Shown: positions 22,276 to 51,408 of the stretch, in pieces
How the letters are laid out: every line of letters begins with the position of its first letter
Numbering within the stretch: the first letter of the stretch is position 1
Source: a virus
Length of the DNA stretch: 51,408 nt
Strand: one strand, 5' to 3'
IMG/VR virus record: IMGVR_UViG_3300048837_000563
Span: 1 to 51,408 of that record
Notes under the pieces: generated by a model
The model's input: the letters and a program-made list of their open reading frames with translations, nothing else
Databases searched by the model: none
What the model was told of the DNA's origin: nothing
Made by a program: the position numbers and the translations under genes

Positions 22276-24522
22276 CTAGGCAGCACCCTTGTTATACTGT
22301 GCCCACTTTGGATCGCCATTATCCGCACCGGCATCATGGAACGCACGCCATTGCAACCCCAATACCTCGAAGGCGGCATCGCCTTGTTGGATCGTTGGGC
22401 GTTGTTGGCCGTTCAGGAACGAACCGATTACCAAACCTCCCATCGGACCAGCGGGGCGAACAAGCAACCATTGATTAGCTGTTTGGTTCGGGATTGCTTG
22501 ACCAAGGTTTGTGATGCGTTGCTTGATATTGGTATTGCTTAGATACCGGGCTTGTACCGGGCGGTATTTGCCAACGTGAGGATTCTTGTTCGGTCGTCCC
22601 TTTGCGTTGGCTGTTTGCAGAACATCCAAAGACGATTCTTTGTAAAGTTCATTTGCCAAAACCGTATCCTGAACACCATGAAGCAAAAGACTTGCTTCAA
22701 TCAGGATTGGCGAATTATCCGAATCGACCATATTGGATAATTGGTTTTCGGCGGCACTCAAGCCGTCAACTCCCAAATCGCTTCCCGTACCAGCAAGGTA
22801 GTTGTTGTTGGCGTTGTTGGTCGGAAACAATGTCGCCAATTGGTTCAACAAGTGAACGTAGAACAACTCCTCAAGGAATTTGGCACCCTCTTCACCGAGA
22901 GCGGTCATAATGCCGTTGAGGGCACCAAGATCATCATTGATGATATCTCGACGGCTTAGACCTACGATCTTACCGTAGGTATCTGCCGAATGGGTGAACT
23001 TCTGATCGCTGAATCCGCCATGCTTCAATTCACCATCGGCACCTACTTGTTGATAACCTCCTTTGGAAGTCAATCGGTAGGCATTGTGGACCTTGAAGTC
23101 GGAAACCGAAGACACTTTGACCCACTCTTGCCAAGTGGTGTTTTGGGCTTCATAGGCTGCCCAAAGCATCTTGTTGGCTGCATCGTCGAAGATGTTCAAA
23201 CCGCTCCAAGTCGTGTTCCCGGAAGCTCGCAATTGATGTTGAGCATCGCGAACAGCCGCGATAAAACCGTCCGTGTTGAGACGACCACGATAACGCGATC
23301 CTGTGGCCGCGATAATGTGGTGTTCCAACAATTGGCACAACGAGATATCTCGGATTTCAGGATTGTCCGAAGCTTCCAAAGTCTCTTCATCGAAAGAGTG
23401 TTCGTAGCCGAATTTCTTTCCGGTGATCTTGTGAGTACCGCTTGCGACTACTCCGGTATTCCGAAGAATAGCACAAGAGAGAGCCAACGGCTTCTTGAAG
23501 ACGCTGGTAAGCGATTCGCGGGAATGAACCCCGATATGCCCAACATCGTCTTTCTTGGCCCGCATCATTTCAAGCTCGAATTTGTCAACGGACCAACCGT
23601 TGGAAATGGCGTAGGAGCAAACACCGCGAACCGTCTTGCGACGACACTTGAGAGTTTTCAGATACTCTTCGTTTAGGTCTTCGTCGTCGAAATTCTCTGC
23701 CGCTGCCCGAATCCCCTCGATTCGCTCATCTTCGGCGGCTTCTTTTTCTCGACGTGCCGTTAGTTTGGCATCATCGTCGATGGGTTCGGTCTTTGGCTTA
23801 CGGGGCGGCGGTGTGGCGAGTGTCTTGTTATAGACAGCTTCCAATTTTGTCCGTTGTTCATCGGTCAATTTGGACGCATCCAACCCAAGGGTTTCGCAAT
23901 GCTCTTTGAGCCACTTTTCAAACATGGTCTTTACTCCGTTATGTAAACTTAGTTTTGCTGCAAGTGAAACGAAATTTGCCCCTTTAACTAACTTCCCAAT
24001 CTCAACAATCTCTGTTGCGAAACCGGCCTCAAGAGCCTCTTGAGCGGTAAACCAATTGTCCCCCTCCATCCAAGATTTGACAGTATCTACCGAAGCTTTT
24101 GTTCGCTCGGTGTAGATATTACGAATGTTTTCGTTTGCCTTTTTGACAAGTTCTAATAGATCAGCTAGACCGGCTTCTTGTGCCCCGAAAGCCGTAACCG
24201 CCGATGAATGGGTCATTAGAAAGGCGTTATCCGCAATTTGTCGAACGTCGCCAGCGAGGAAAATAACCGAAGCAATCGAGGCGGCGATACTATCACAAAT
24301 TGTGGTAACCCCACCTTCCCATTGTCGGAGAAGATTGTAGATTCCCAATCCTTGGAAAACATCACCACCGTCACTTCCTAAACGGATTATAAGTTTGGTG
24401 TTTTTCGGCAGGGTTTTTAGAGCATCCCGCAAATCTTGTAATGAGAACCCAAATCCTTGCGAGATATCGTTATAGATTTCGATTGTCGCAACACCAGATT
24501 TCATCGTTAAGGAAATGGTCAT
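22276..24522 (-). CDS. ClpP-type prohead protease fused to major capsid protein
   Basis: Residues 1-200 are an S14 (ClpP-like) protease: LIIRLGSDGGDVFQGLGIYN, then CDSIAASIASVIFLAG with the likely nucleophile Ser82, and MTHSS with His105. Residues about 205-300 are charged and helical (KWLKEH..., EKEAAEDERIEGI), suited to scaffolding. The remainder to 748 is consistent with an HK97-fold major capsid protein. Such a polyprotein would be cut by its own protease during head maturation. It follows the portal gene as in lambda-like heads. AGAAAGG precedes the ATG. Confidence 0.85.
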   Translation of the reverse strand: MTISLTMKSGVATIEIYNDISQGFGFSLQDLRDALKTLPKNTKLIIRLGSDGGDVFQGLGIYNLLRQWEGGVTTICDSIAASIASVIFLAGDVRQIADNAFLMTHSSAVTAFGAQEAGLADLLELVKKANENIRNIYTERTKASVDTVKSWMEGDNWFTAQEALEAGFATEIVEIGKLVKGANFVSLAAKLSLHNGVKTMFEKWLKEHCETLGLDASKLTDEQRTKLEAVYNKTLATPPPRKPKTEPIDDDAKLTARREKEAAEDERIEGIRAAAENFDDEDLNEEYLKTLKCRRKTVRGVCSYAISNGWSVDKFELEMMRAKKDDVGHIGVHSRESLTSVFKKPLALSCAILRNTGVVASGTHKITGKKFGYEHSFDEETLEASDNPEIRDISLCQLLEHHIIAATGSRYRGRLNTDGFIAAVRDAQHQLRASGNTTWSGLNIFDDAANKMLWAAYEAQNTTWQEWVKVSSVSDFKVHNAYRLTSKGGYQQVGADGELKHGGFSDQKFTHSADTYGKIVGLSRRDIINDDLGALNGIMTALGEEGAKFLEELFYVHLLNQLATLFPTNNANNNYLAGTGSDLGVDGLSAAENQLSNMVDSDNSPILIEASLLLHGVQDTVLANELYKESSLDVLQTANAKGRPNKNPHVGKYRPVQARYLSNTNIKQRITNLGQAIPNQTANQWLLVRPAGPMGGLVIGSFLNGQQRPTIQQGDAAFEVLGLQWRAFHDAGADNGDPKWAQYNKGAA

Positions 24523-45800: not shown

Positions 45801-45973
45801 TTTTTGGGGTCTTCTATACGATCAATGGATATTACCTTTCTATTTCTTTCGTTGTACTCTCTTATAAGCTCAAGCCGGAATTCCTTCTCTGATACCGCTA
45901 GAGGTTTCTTGTGTTCCGAATTTCGTATTACTTTTGATCCGGTCTTTCGACGGTAGTAAACGACGAATCTCAT
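45797..45973 (-). CDS. Small charged protein, 58 aa
   Basis: GGAGGG lies seven bases before the ATG at 45973, and the frame overlaps both neighbours by ATGA, filling the gap between the primase and the Lys-rich protein. The product begins MRFVVYYRRKTGSKV and continues as an amphipathic, charged helix. Function unknown. Confidence 0.75.
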   Translation of the reverse strand: MRFVVYYRRKTGSKVIRNSEHKKPLAVSEKEFRLELIREYNERNRKVISIDRIEDPKK

Positions 45974-48147
45974 CGTAGACCCTCCTTACAGAGATTGAAG
46001 ACTGTTTCTGTTAAGCTGTGGTAATGGGCCTTCCTGCCACTACCGTTGGATATTTTCTCGGAAGCCTTTTCGAGTATTCCTAATTCCTTCATATCGTTGG
46101 TGATGTTTACTACCTGTGTTTTCGACAACCCTAGTTTATCCTTGAGGTATTCAGAGGTTGCTGGGCGGTTCTTTTGGTTGTAAAGAATCTCGATAATTTG
46201 AAACTGCCAGTTGTCGCTACTGTCGCGGACTAAATTTTTGACAATCTCAAATATCTCGTTTGTTATCTTCGGTGTTTTAGAGTCGTACAGAACGATCGCC
46301 AAGAGCATAAAGAACCGCATTAAGCTTTCATTGATTCGGGCGGGCACTTCTCGTTCTCCCCGTCTCTTTAGGTTCTTTTGTCTATCGCGATCTACCTTAG
46401 CACGACCGAAAGCTAAGAGGTTTGCTAAAGCCTTAGCTCTTTTTGCCTGCGATTCGGTAAAGGGGGCTATACGTATACCCTCTTTAATTTGTTGCGTTTT
46501 ATGGCGAAGAAAGCCGTTTAGATAAGGGGCTATTCGCATGGTGATACTCTTACGGGAAGTCGTATCATACTCATCGGCTTCCCCTGATAGTTGCTTCGCA
46601 ATGTTTGAGAAAGAAGTCTCAAAACTGGTTTCGAGAATCTTGTTCGTGTCTGTGTTTGCTCGGTGGATAACAATATCAAAAAATCGAGAACCTAGACGGG
46701 CATCATCGATATCTTGTATTCGATTTGTGCCACACATAATACAAGTAAAGAGGCAATGTACCTCAATAGCTTGTTTGCTATTTCTCCATTCCGCACGGAT
46801 AACCCCGTCGCCTAATCCCGATCGTAGCTCACTTTCGATCTGGCTTAAATTGGGAAGATTCAGTAGCGTGTCTGCTTCTTTGATGATAAGGCATTTACCA
46901 TCCATTCTTTTCGCCATCATGTTAGAGGCGGAAAGACTACCGCTAATGATCCCAGTAAATGTATCGCGGGGATAGACAAACTCTTCATCATTTTGAGAAC
47001 ATATCTCGGCTAAGGTAGACTTGGCACTACTGGCAGGCCCACGTACTCTAAGCCCAAGTTGCCCGCCTTTAATGGGCGTAGAGAGAATGACAGCCAGCAT
47101 AGCTGCGAACGTATGCTTAATGTCATCGGTCATGTGCAACCCCATTTTGGTGGTAGGTTCGTAGCTCATCATTTCGATAAGCTCTTTGAAGTTGGTGCAA
47201 TCACGATATTCTAGATTAGTATCCGATTCGACATTAAGCCTTACCTTTTCTGGGGAAAGGGAAATGGAGGTGGTTCGTTCCTGGATTCTTTGGAACGCTT
47301 TAAGATGTGAAAGCCTTTCGATTGCCAGAAGATCGCGAATATCATTAGGGTCGTCTTCGGACCAAATGACCTTAGCTAGACTTTTCGGAACGTGGGAACT
47401 TTCCTGAACCATTCTCGTAAGCCGATCGCATCCCGTTCTACCGGCCTTATCGTTATCAAAAATTAGGATTACCTCTTTACCTTTTAACAGAGGTAGCCAA
47501 ACCTCTTTGAAAATACCTGCTCCCGGAACAGCAACAATTGCGTTGTTGGTTAATAGCTCGTTTTCAAAATCCGGCTTCCCCTTTAATTTGTAGCCGTCTT
47601 CGATTGGTGCGAGATGAGCCATGATTTCAATAAGTGCCATTCGATCCCAATGACCTTCAACAACATAGACCGTCTTGTGTGACGGTTTTATTGTTTCTTG
47701 GCCGTAAAGATGTTGTGTGCAGGGGGCAGGGGAAGAGATAACATTAAGACGGTCTTTACCGTCTTTATCCGTTAATAAGAAAGCTCGATAGAGATTGACT
47801 ACCGAACCTTTTTGATTGCGAACTGGGATTAGCCATTCCCCGGTAGGTGATTGGACAACCCCAACGTGCTGGAAAGTTGATTCTTTGAGAAACCGATTCT
47901 CACACAACCAGCTATAGTCTTGTGGCTCTTGTGTTAGCTGTTCGTGTAGCTGTTGAAGGAATGACCAGTTATTACCCTTTCTCATGCAGGCCCCTGCCTT
48001 ACACTCAAATTGACCTGTATTCCGATTGATGTAAAAATGGTCTTCTTTTCCACAAAAGGGGCAAGCGGCAACTAGTTGACTTCCTTGAATTGTCGTTGTC
48101 AATCCAAAGACGTAGTAAAACTTTCTATGATCTGTTTCGCCGGGCAT
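45970..48147 (-). CDS. TOPRIM primase fused to MCM-like AAA+ helicase
   Basis: The 725-residue protein has a CHC2-type zinc finger (CPFC at 29-32, Cys49, Cys54), a TOPRIM domain (YVVEGHWD with Glu164; ILIFDNDKAG with Asp231 and Asp233), and an AAA+ domain. The AAA+ part has Walker A GPASSAKST (370-378), Walker B-like LIIKEAD, sensor CGTN and arginine-finger LGSRFFDIVI. The AKS in Walker A and the SRF motif are MCM-like, not DnaB-like. A C-terminal winged helix (about 655-715) follows. It would prime and unwind phage DNA. Confidence 0.82.
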   Translation of the reverse strand: MPGETDHRKFYYVFGLTTTIQGSQLVAACPFCGKEDHFYINRNTGQFECKAGACMRKGNNWSFLQQLHEQLTQEPQDYSWLCENRFLKESTFQHVGVVQSPTGEWLIPVRNQKGSVVNLYRAFLLTDKDGKDRLNVISSPAPCTQHLYGQETIKPSHKTVYVVEGHWDRMALIEIMAHLAPIEDGYKLKGKPDFENELLTNNAIVAVPGAGIFKEVWLPLLKGKEVILIFDNDKAGRTGCDRLTRMVQESSHVPKSLAKVIWSEDDPNDIRDLLAIERLSHLKAFQRIQERTTSISLSPEKVRLNVESDTNLEYRDCTNFKELIEMMSYEPTTKMGLHMTDDIKHTFAAMLAVILSTPIKGGQLGLRVRGPASSAKSTLAEICSQNDEEFVYPRDTFTGIISGSLSASNMMAKRMDGKCLIIKEADTLLNLPNLSQIESELRSGLGDGVIRAEWRNSKQAIEVHCLFTCIMCGTNRIQDIDDARLGSRFFDIVIHRANTDTNKILETSFETSFSNIAKQLSGEADEYDTTSRKSITMRIAPYLNGFLRHKTQQIKEGIRIAPFTESQAKRAKALANLLAFGRAKVDRDRQKNLKRRGEREVPARINESLMRFFMLLAIVLYDSKTPKITNEIFEIVKNLVRDSSDNWQFQIIEILYNQKNRPATSEYLKDKLGLSKTQVVNITNDMKELGILEKASEKISNGSGRKAHYHSLTETVFNLCKEGLR

Positions 48148-48209: not shown

Positions 48210-48833
48210 CTATTCCGGCGATACCCGGCCACCGCAGTACCCTTGCTCTGTGAGTAGCTCAAGGATAGGCGGGGCTTGCCAGTCTTTAGGTTTGATCCAC
48301 TTACCGTCTTCTCTGCGATAACCACCGAATTCTGAAAGCGGTCTATCATCAAAATCAGAACACCCTTTAGCCGAGCAATAACAATAGTCACCATTTATTA
48401 CCATAGGAGCGTTGCAAGTTGGACATTTGGGTTCAGTAAATTTTGCGAGGTTGCTATGATCGACAGCTTTTAGGATTGGTTTATCCTTGATACCGCAGGC
48501 GGATAGTGTACCTGTTGTGACTACCATTAGATCACAACATCCATCAGCGATCTCAACTATATCGGGTTTCTTGTGTTTGTTCTCTTCGATGAGAAGGTTG
48601 TTGATCCTGATTGGTAATCCTTCTTTCGGTACAACATTACCCCCGGATGCCTTTACTGTTAGACCTAATCCCTTTTGGATCGTTTCTAAAGCTTCCTCAA
48701 GGATTAGTTTGGCTCGCAGAATGCGAACGTCTAGGGAAGGTATCTTCGGTGAGGGCGGTAGCTCTTGACCGGCTAACCGCATGAATCTTTCTACTCGTAG
48801 TTGGTGTGCTGATCTGTCGATTGGTTTACTCAT
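48210..48833 (-). CDS. MazG-like NTP pyrophosphohydrolase with zinc knuckle, 207 aa
   Basis: Starting at 48833 (MSKPIDRSAHQL), in ATGA overlap with the previous gene, the protein has the all-alpha NTP-PPase motifs: RAKLILEEALETIQKG (ExxE) and DGCCDLMVVTTG (D...D helix). CPTCNAP and YCYCSAKGC add a zinc knuckle. The family hydrolyses dNTPs and other nucleotides. A longer frame to 48971 would overlap the neighbour. Confidence 0.82.
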   Translation of the reverse strand: MSKPIDRSAHQLRVERFMRLAGQELPPSPKIPSLDVRILRAKLILEEALETIQKGLGLTVKASGGNVVPKEGLPIRINNLLIEENKHKKPDIVEIADGCCDLMVVTTGTLSACGIKDKPILKAVDHSNLAKFTEPKCPTCNAPMVINGDYCYCSAKGCSDFDDRPLSEFGGYRREDGKWIKPKDWQAPPILELLTEQGYCGGRVSPE

Positions 48834-49012
48834 TTTCTTTCTTTCTGTTGTAGATAGATTTGGTAACGTTGGTAACGACGGAATTTCTTTTCTGCTTTGT
48901 AAATAAAGTAGTTCGCTACGATCGGGTTTATCCAAGGCGATATGCTTTGCGGTATGAAGCCTGCCCACCAAGACCCCGCAATCTCGTAGAGAATTGCCTC
49001 TTTAAGATTCAT
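48830..49012 (-). CDS. Small membrane-associated protein, 60 aa
   Basis: The ATG at 49012 follows AAAGGG at five bases. The product has a hydrophobic, Trp-rich segment (GSWWAGFIPQSISPW) and a basic, Tyr-rich tail. It lies between the polymerase and the MazG-like gene. Function unknown. Confidence 0.65.
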   Translation of the reverse strand: MNLKEAILYEIAGSWWAGFIPQSISPWINPIVANYFIYKAEKKFRRYQRYQIYLQQKERK

Positions 49013-49022
49013 TTGACCCTTT

Positions 49023-51408
49023 CTAAATTGCTGTGCCATCGGACCAATTAATTAAATGTTCCTTGCCGCCTACGGGTAAAGGTATGCCGATTCTCTCTCC
49101 CTGTTTTTCCATGTTGTGTCGGATGAGTTCTTTGATCTCTTGATCGTAAGGGTTGTTAATTTGTGTCTTAAAAACTAGCTCATCGTGAATCTGTAGAATC
49201 ATCTTCGTCTTTAGTTCTGGGCGTGATTCTAAAGCTTCGTGACAATCGATCATTGCCCTTCCGATGATTGCCCCCGCTGTTCCTTGAACTTTACCCGATA
49301 CGGATTTGTGCGGATCGTTATATGGGATATGTAACCGATATCCGGTCAGTGTTTCAATATATCCTCTGCTCTTAACTTGACCGAAAAGCTTCTCTGTAAA
49401 CTGTCGTACCTCCGGGAAGCGTTTTGATAACCTTTCGTAAGCTCCGGGGACACCGTAAGTGATATCTGCTTTATTCGGTGATGATCCATAGATGATTGCG
49501 AAGTTTCCATTTTTTGTTCTCTTGTATCGTTTATCCTCTTTGTAGATTTCAGGCGGCATATTTTTTAGTTCGGGGTGAAGCTCGCAAGCTATCAGATAAT
49601 GTACGGGGGTATCATTCTCAAAACACCAAATAAACTCTTTGTTCCCGCACTCATATCCCCATATCCGAAGTTCGATATTTGAGTAGTCGTAGGAAAGCCA
49701 TTTGTTACCTGGGAGCGGGCCGAAGTCTTCCCGTAGGTTGTAATCTATTTGGCCGTCTGCGAGTTCTTTGCCAGTACCGATGTTTTGTAGGTTTGGACTG
49801 CTAAGCGACTGCCTTGTAAACTTGGTTCCTGTGATGTTGATGGATGGATGAATTGTTGCCTTCGTCGCCCATTTGCGATAACTTGAAAGATAGCCCGCTG
49901 CCTTCTCGTTATTTCTGGAAAGGAGGATTGATTGTAAAAGGCGGGATGTTTCCTCATCTTCCGACATAAGCCACAAGGCTTTTAACGCTGGGGCGGCTAC
50001 CGATGGTTGTCCTGTTTCTGTTTTGACAAGTATCGGAAGCCTCCGATCTTGAAAGAGGGCTTTCTGTAGCTGCTTGTCTGATCGGATGTTTATGGGGGGT
50101 GACTCGGGTTTTTTGTTGTCGTTGTCGTTTGCTAGTTCAGCTAGATAATCCCCATGACATTCTTGCGGCTTACATACACATCCTAATCGTTTGCCTCTTA
50201 GTTCGTGAATAGCTGCCAATAGTTTTGGTTGTGTTGGTAGCCATGTCTTGTATTTTTGACAAACTTCTTTTCGATCCCCGTCTATCCCGATAACAAATGG
50301 GTTGCCCCATTTTCCTTTTCGTGTTATGTCTATGTCGAATTTTTCTTTGTGTTTGTTAGCTACTATTGCCGGTTTTGCTATTTTTTTGCTGCCGGAAGAA
50401 AGTATTTTAACTGCCTTCTCTTCCTCCGTCTTAGCTTTGTTGATATACCTCTCTGCATCCGTATGGATTTGGGGGGTCACTGTGACCCCCTCTTTAACCA
50501 TGTCGTGTGTGACCTTTAGTAGTCTCTTACGTTCTGTGTACTGCTCCCACAATCCGGCTTTTTCAAGTTCTCGTTGCAAGAGTTCCCACAACACGATGGT
50601 CGATTCGCTGTCTTCAAGGGCGTAGTCTCGCAAGACGGTATGCCAAGAATGTACCGAAGTTGGCGGCAATAGTCCTGTATCTCGTTGGCCGTGTTTTCCA
50701 TATCGTCTTTGGTATTCTTCCCCAATTTGTGTTTGACGTGTGCTGTCGTTACCGATACATCGATCGCTAGTAAGAGAGACGATACCTTGCTTCGTGGGGC
50801 GACTGTTTCTAAGGCCATCTTGGTTTTCTTTCGGTAGGAATTCAGGGGCTAAGGTTGCTATGGCTCGCGGTAACCATGTATCCAGATACCACCAGCCGGA
50901 AATTTCTTCGTTCTTTTCTTTGGGGGCTTTGTCAACTGCTGGCCAATGAGGATCGGAGCTATCCGCTATTCTCCATTCTCCGTGAGCTTTGATAAAGGTT
51001 TTAGTACGGACGATTCGACGGGCATGATTTGTTGCGATCCTTAGATTGTTCTGTCGGTAGTCGTCAATCAGTAGTAGTGAGTTTCTCAATTCCTTGAGAC
51101 TGTGACTCCATAGATTTTCGAGAACATGACTTGCTATGCAGGTGTCTTCGATGTTTTCCCATAACCAATCCAAAGAGTAATCTACTTTTGCGAATTGCAG
51201 AATCTTCTCTGTGGCTAGGATATCAAAGTTTGCGTTGTGCATAACAACAGGGCCGGAACAGAGACAATCACAGAGTTGGTTTAACTCTTCGTAGTTTACT
51301 TTGGGCTGTCTTGTAAATGGGTCTACATCCCATTCGTACCACTCATTCAACCCCTCTTCTTTCTCTGGGAGGGAATGTGTGATGGCGAAAAAGAACGGTA
51401 GGCATCCG
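49023..51408 (-). CDS. Family A DNA polymerase with inserted DUF4326 domain (5' end at 1-171)
   Basis: With the 34 residues supplied by the other end, the protein is about 809 residues. The exonuclease domain has DTET (5-8), HNANFD (to Asp77) and YALED (Asp281). The polymerase has motif A YDYSNIELR (Asp589), O-helix RTKNGNFAIIYG with Phe at the E. coli 762 position (Phe651), and motif C QIHDELVF (Asp757). Residues about 360-440 (DNA 50136-50375) are a DUF4326 domain: GKWGNPF, LRGKRLGCVC and CHGDYLAEL. It replicates the phage genome. The stop is followed by the membrane protein gene at 49012. Confidence 0.93.
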   Translation of the reverse strand, partial: GCLPFFFAITHSLPEKEEGLNEWYEWDVDPFTRQPKVNYEELNQLCDCLCSGPVVMHNANFDILATEKILQFAKVDYSLDWLWENIEDTCIASHVLENLWSHSLKELRNSLLLIDDYRQNNLRIATNHARRIVRTKTFIKAHGEWRIADSSDPHWPAVDKAPKEKNEEISGWWYLDTWLPRAIATLAPEFLPKENQDGLRNSRPTKQGIVSLTSDRCIGNDSTRQTQIGEEYQRRYGKHGQRDTGLLPPTSVHSWHTVLRDYALEDSESTIVLWELLQRELEKAGLWEQYTERKRLLKVTHDMVKEGVTVTPQIHTDAERYINKAKTEEEKAVKILSSGSKKIAKPAIVANKHKEKFDIDITRKGKWGNPFVIGIDGDRKEVCQKYKTWLPTQPKLLAAIHELRGKRLGCVCKPQECHGDYLAELANDNDNKKPESPPINIRSDKQLQKALFQDRRLPILVKTETGQPSVAAPALKALWLMSEDEETSRLLQSILLSRNNEKAAGYLSSYRKWATKATIHPSINITGTKFTRQSLSSPNLQNIGTGKELADGQIDYNLREDFGPLPGNKWLSYDYSNIELRIWGYECGNKEFIWCFENDTPVHYLIACELHPELKNMPPEIYKEDKRYKRTKNGNFAIIYGSSPNKADITYGVPGAYERLSKRFPEVRQFTEKLFGQVKSRGYIETLTGYRLHIPYNDPHKSVSGKVQGTAGAIIGRAMIDCHEALESRPELKTKMILQIHDELVFKTQINNPYDQEIKELIRHNMEKQGERIGIPLPVGGKEHLINWSDGTAI
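51282..51408. repeat. 127-bp terminal direct repeat, right copy
   Basis: This segment is identical to 1-127 and closes the genome into a 51,281-bp circle through the polymerase gene. It is probably an assembly overlap of one k-mer length. Confidence 0.93.

Follow-up and report, generated by a model that had tools for sequence, protein, structure and literature searches.

The locus analysed here raises the question of whether a DUF4326 domain has become part of a phage DNA polymerase and, if so, where in the enzyme it sits and what it might do there. The window, by which we mean the whole stretch of DNA analysed, is IMG/VR record IMGVR_UViG_3300048837_000563, 51,408 bases from a bacterial virus.

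A DUF4326 domain in the frame of a family A polymerase

A six-frame search of the window for protein families matched PF14216 on the minus strand (E = 3e-26, 87.9 bits), in a stop-free interval that lies in the frame of a 794-codon polymerase ORF (Table 1). In agreement with this, hmmscan assigned DUF4326 to the translated ORF at a score of 84 bits (cut-off 25). The match spans model positions 4–82 of 82, indicating a full-length domain, and a chance match is excluded. The preliminary description had proposed a DUF4326 domain within a polymerase from the segments KWGNPFVIG, LRGKRLGCVC and CHGDYLAELAN, followed by the polymerase element NIRSDKQLQKALF; all of these are present, and the proposal is borne out by profile scores far over the cut-off without internal stops. 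In particular, the GNPF and CxCxPxxCHG signatures of the family are all kept in the insert.

The ORF that surrounds the domain is matched by PF00476 (DNA_pol_A) over residues 438–781 with 176 bits, and alignment indicated that the residues of polymerase motifs A, B and C (D574/E579, K632 and H741-D742) are present. The exonuclease domain gave a weak, sub-threshold hmmscan match of 15.4 bits. The earlier statement that polymerase and exonuclease motifs are both intact holds for the polymerase motifs and for exonuclease motifs II and III; the contig ends within the ORF, and motif I lies outside the window, the polymerase of a sister phage having 15 extra N-terminal residues that include DTET. 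A PADLOC match of the polymerase to RTasPolA was rejected as ordinary PolA similarity.

Table 1 Positions of the polymerase, its inserted domain and adjacent genes in the window
Feature	Position	Strand	Basis or remark
Primase/helicase gene, downstream of polA	45970..48147	-	Also in sister phage
MazG/PRA-PH-like nucleotide pyrophosphohydrolase gene, between polA and primase	48210..48971	-	Not found in sister record
ORF of 794 codons for the family A DNA polymerase, DUF4326 nested in it	49023..51407	-	5′ end (exonuclease motif I) beyond contig end
Polymerase motif C, HDE	49179..49187	-	Alignment
Polymerase motif A, DYSNIELR	49665..49688	-	Alignment
NIRSDKQL, beginning of next thumb helix, where polymerase sequence resumes	50067..50090	-	Alignment
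Whole insert relative to L002, about residues 336–439 (linker, DUF4326, linker)	50091..50402	-	Alignments with L002 and 50 other polymerases
DUF4326 domain (PF14216), residues 350–424	50136..50360	-	Profile matches
CVCKPQECHGD loop, residues 410–420 (strand, Cys-rich loop, helix); predicted likely active or metal site	50148..50180	-	Conservation and model
KWGNPF signature, residues 366–371	50295..50312	-	
Long thumb helix preceding the insert, residues 313–339	50391..50471	-	AlphaFold2 model
Exonuclease motif III, Y262...D266	50610..50624	-	Invariant in polymerase alignment
Exonuclease motif II, HNANFD	51222..51239	-	Alignment

Position in the thumb and an empty site in a sister polymerase

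Alignment placed residues 335–438 of the polymerase opposite residues 251–333 of T7 gp5 and residues 564–577 of enterobacterial Pol I. Because the thioredoxin-binding domain of T7 polymerase, which spans approximately residues 258–333, falls in the aligned interval, the insert occupies the site of that domain. The NIRSDKQL element with which polymerase sequence resumes has as its counterparts FNPSSRDHI in T7 gp5 and FNLSSTKQL in enterobacterial Pol I. When the entire polymerase was modelled with AlphaFold2 (pLDDT 81.6, pTM 0.78), the helix of residues 313–339 led into the DUF4326 fold (block pLDDT 77–93), which is followed by a helix of residues 444–454; confidence is low in the truncated N-terminus and in some segments between residues 149 and 252, and the model as a whole matches Pol I structures (E = 2e-22). 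An insertion that had been placed near the thumb is thus indeed in the thumb region, but is nested within it, between these two helices.

The only close relative of the polymerase found in IMG/VR is that of IMGVR_UViG_3300029146_000001 (L002), a protein of 708 residues with 65% identity throughout the polymerase, both before and after the insert. At the insert site this sister polymerase has a short loop, ...VEAATEIARKTKSKKQTQDV-NIRSDKQL, and DUF4326 is absent from the whole 43-kb L002 record, which may be incomplete. L002 is a clean empty site for the DUF4326 insert. Patterns drawn from the window–L002 alignment, which were poor, yielded no new close relative of the polymerase. In a polymerase alignment to which five DUF4326 rows had been added, and from which conservation and column counts were taken, 48 of 51 other polymerases have only 5–8 residues in the DUF4326 columns; L024, L026 and L025 have 20, 21 and 36, respectively. 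In a second alignment, with 50 other polymerases, only L024 (31 residues) and L025 (52 residues) stand out at the thumb loop; the polymerases with these other thumb-loop inserts are at L024:3925–5943 and L025:3484–5628.

Between polA and the primase/helicase gene, the window holds an extra small ORF and the MazG/PRA-PH-like gene, no counterparts of which were found in the L002 record; in L002 the primase/helicase gene follows polA. Elsewhere in the window (22276–24522, minus strand) is a 748-residue protein that resembles a fusion of a head maturation protease with the major capsid protein (phrog_133, phrog_4523).

The inserted domain and its relatives

Modelled in isolation with 72 relatives, the DUF4326 domain reached a mean pLDDT of 90.9 and a pTM of 0.80, and its secondary-structure elements are the same as in the whole-polymerase model. 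The insert is therefore predicted to fold as a domain of its own and not as part of an ordinary thumb, the outcome that would have spoken against the preliminary description. The isolated model matches many viral DUF4326 models, including a Marseillevirus 'NADAR domain with protein tyrosine phosphatase'. Compared with PDB folds, the same model (pLDDT 91) gave no match better than E = 3, and a profile search of PDB sequences with DUF4326 returned nothing below E = 0.03. The order of strand, Cys loop and helix in the insert is compatible with the rhodanese/Cys-phosphatase superfamily, a relationship that was looked for by fold and by profile against solved structures and was not recovered.

We compared constraint on the inserted domain with that on 72 free-standing DUF4326 relatives. 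The insert keeps all positions that are at least 95% conserved among them (R363, W367, G368, N369, P370, G374, G377, R379, L396, L403, L408, C410, C412, P414, C417, H418, G419 and L422); C412, P414, C417 and H418 are invariant in the 72 relatives, and C410 is 99% conserved. The insert has V411 at a position that is aromatic (W/F/Y) in 94% of relatives, and IDITRK in place of the VYIGRP segment of the family. Its nearest relative found is 66% identical, and its root-to-tip distance ranks 35 of 73, which is average and not unusually fast. The retention of these positions, together with a lineage that is not unusually fast, argues that the domain is not decaying, and because the retained residues include those of the CxCxPxxCHG loop, the insert looks functional. 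We infer, from sequence conservation, that the inserted DUF4326 is under constraint and functional.

DUF4326 is widespread (2,049 of 50,697 phage records have a match), and we found no assigned activity for any DUF4326 protein. Free-standing DUF4326 adjoins polA in L042, L101, L106, L145, L175 and phage YuA, where the order is gp21 polA, gp22 DUF4326 and gp23 dCMP deaminase; T4-like phages carry it between td and nrdA, under the name NrdA.1, and phage DoCa5 has it directly next to a gene for a nucleotide pyrophosphohydrolase. The commonest families among 89 neighbour proteins, taken from distinct viral loci, were DNA_pol_A and N6/N4 methylase (4 each), and PolA adjoined DUF4326 at 4 of 72 loci as compared with 12 of 888 other genes, a modest excess (Fisher p = 0.027). 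DUF4326 is also joined, within single viral proteins, to a uracil-DNA glycosylase domain (L099:4959–5930; IMGVR_UViG_3300037087_000144), to a 5′–3′ exonuclease of the PolA N-terminal type (L162:4570–5859; IMGVR_UViG_3300031788_000731; also L163) and to an SNF2-type helicase (L128:4983–6647; IMGVR_UViG_3300033153_007339), and forms the C-terminus of a protein with a YAcAr (SLOG) domain (L174:227–982). These neighbours (polA, td, nrdA) and fusions (glycosylase, exonuclease, SNF2, SLOG) indicate that DUF4326 is repeatedly paired with DNA-acting enzymes.

Further polymerases with the same insert, a search for which the preliminary description had suggested, were not found. In particular, tblastn with the whole polymerase and with the DUF4326–thumb stretch, against 50,697 phage and 72,556 plasmid records, gave no fused gene among the matches listed, and there was no fused case among the best 80 DUF4326 loci and the best 80 PolA loci. 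Degenerate junction patterns likewise detected no fused case in IMG/VR or GTDB contigs; their control was the match to the window itself, and since the window's own record was left out and the collections had no positive control, these negatives are moderate evidence only. A single example of a nested PolA/DUF4326 fusion is known. Candidates that we rejected were A3Wally, whose DUF4326 gene is distinct from polA and lies two genes downstream of it, Escherichia virus TH47 and a Bradyrhizobium plasmid, in which it is free-standing, and Curtobacterium phage Shrew, which is without DUF4326 and whose family A polymerase, gp79 (L005:861–3392), instead carries a uracil-DNA glycosylase domain at its N-terminus. 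At L145:384–2951 and L146:368–3034, PolA matches fall on two ORFs 0.5–0.9 kb apart, possibly because of an intron or another insertion.

Possible roles and comparison with known systems

Burroughs, Aravind and colleagues predict that DUF4326 is a rhodanese-phosphatase clade directed at terminal phosphates of ADP-ribose derivatives (PMC9503650), and fusions of DUF4326 to Macro, SLOG, NADAR and, in general terms, 'DNA replication or R-M components' are mentioned (PMC7824862, PMC9503650). The reading that we favour, tentatively and at close to even probability, is that the inserted DUF4326 is an active phosphate- or nucleotide-handling domain that acts in cis on the DNA behind the polymerase. A complete DUF4326 lies in the loop between two thumb helices of a replicative polymerase, and was gained there by in-frame insertion. 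The domain would retain whichever function, ligand binding or catalysis, its free-standing relatives have. Because the thumb contacts the upstream duplex in family A polymerases, the domain would be positioned at the thumb tip alongside the freshly synthesised duplex, close behind the active site, and might there act on a phosphate- or ribose-linked group of DNA or of a nucleotide while copying proceeds. Against this reading stand the modest size of the PolA excess among neighbours, the departures at V411 and in the VYIGRP segment, the single example of the fusion and the searches of solved structures that gave no match. Alternatively, C410-x-C412-x4-C417-H418 may be a metal site. A long shot is the more specific proposal that DUF4326 strips adducts of the ADP-ribose or phosphate type from DNA or primer ends at the fork, that the replicase thereby resists host defences of the DarT kind, and that the thumb tip is a general port for processivity, lyase and lesion-removing modules.

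A somewhat unlikely alternative is that the insert is a structural DNA grip, or a docking site for a helicase, SSB or host factor, that raises processivity, its catalytic residues being incidental. The insert is basic, with a net charge of +8 across residues 334–439, and its DUF core carries a charge of +5 as compared with a mean of +1.8 (s.d. 2.2) in free-standing relatives; the thumb site is that of the T7 thioredoxin-binding domain, and thumb inserts of family A enzymes give processivity or lesion bypass in T7, human Pol gamma and plant organellar polymerases (PMC7699545). However, the insert comes from a family unrelated to the T7 domain, the sister polymerase is without it, and its catalytic-type motif, which mere grip would not need, is fully kept.

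Decidedly unlikely is that the insert is a tolerated passenger, placed in frame in a permissive loop and not selected for any role in replication. It has kept every family-invariant residue even though identity to its nearest known relative is no more than 66%, and its codon choice fits the large genes of the phage no less well than that of the flanks (z = +2.5), which argues against a fresh arrival. There is, on the other side, the single example, the tolerance of the thumb-tip loop for inserts of 31 and 52 residues (L024, L025), and a GC3 of 0.29 as against 0.45–0.47 in the flanks, compatible with a separate origin. That two genes were joined by an assembly artefact is scarcely credible: although the arrangement is known from one contig and has no second example, both junctions are in frame without a stop, the polymerase sequence before and after the insert is 65% identical to L002, and a chimera would require two coincident in-frame joins.

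The replicase with DUF4326 and its sister without it form a matched pair, in which the domain's effect on DNA synthesis is directly measurable, and the fusion shows the T7 thumb loop acting naturally as an insertion port, here for a domain that is unrelated and apparently enzymatic. T7 gp5, likewise a family A replicase of a phage, has its extra sequence in the same thumb loop, immediately ahead of N-x-x-S. Its insert, however, is unrelated and binds host thioredoxin, whereas here a compact DUF4326 with a conserved Cys/His loop is found; profile and alignment identify the window's insert as DUF4326, and homology to the thioredoxin-binding domain was not detected. In plant organellar polymerases, thumb insertions 1 and 2 also add function (lesion bypass, dRP lyase; PMC7699545), but they are short and lysine-rich and are not recognisable as a domain that also occurs on its own. 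Free-standing DUF4326 proteins (T4 NrdA.1, YuA gp22, PhiH1_375) have the invariant residues in common with the insert, the relatives examined being 47–66% identical to it, but they are small proteins in their own right, encoded in some cases next to polA or genes of nucleotide synthesis, and are not nested. Published DUF4326 fusions resemble the present one in being joined to other enzymes, replication components included, whereas a nested PolA-thumb insertion is not described in the accessible text of PMC7824862 and PMC9503650. The component families are known, and the arrangement of DUF4326 within a PolA thumb appears to be new.
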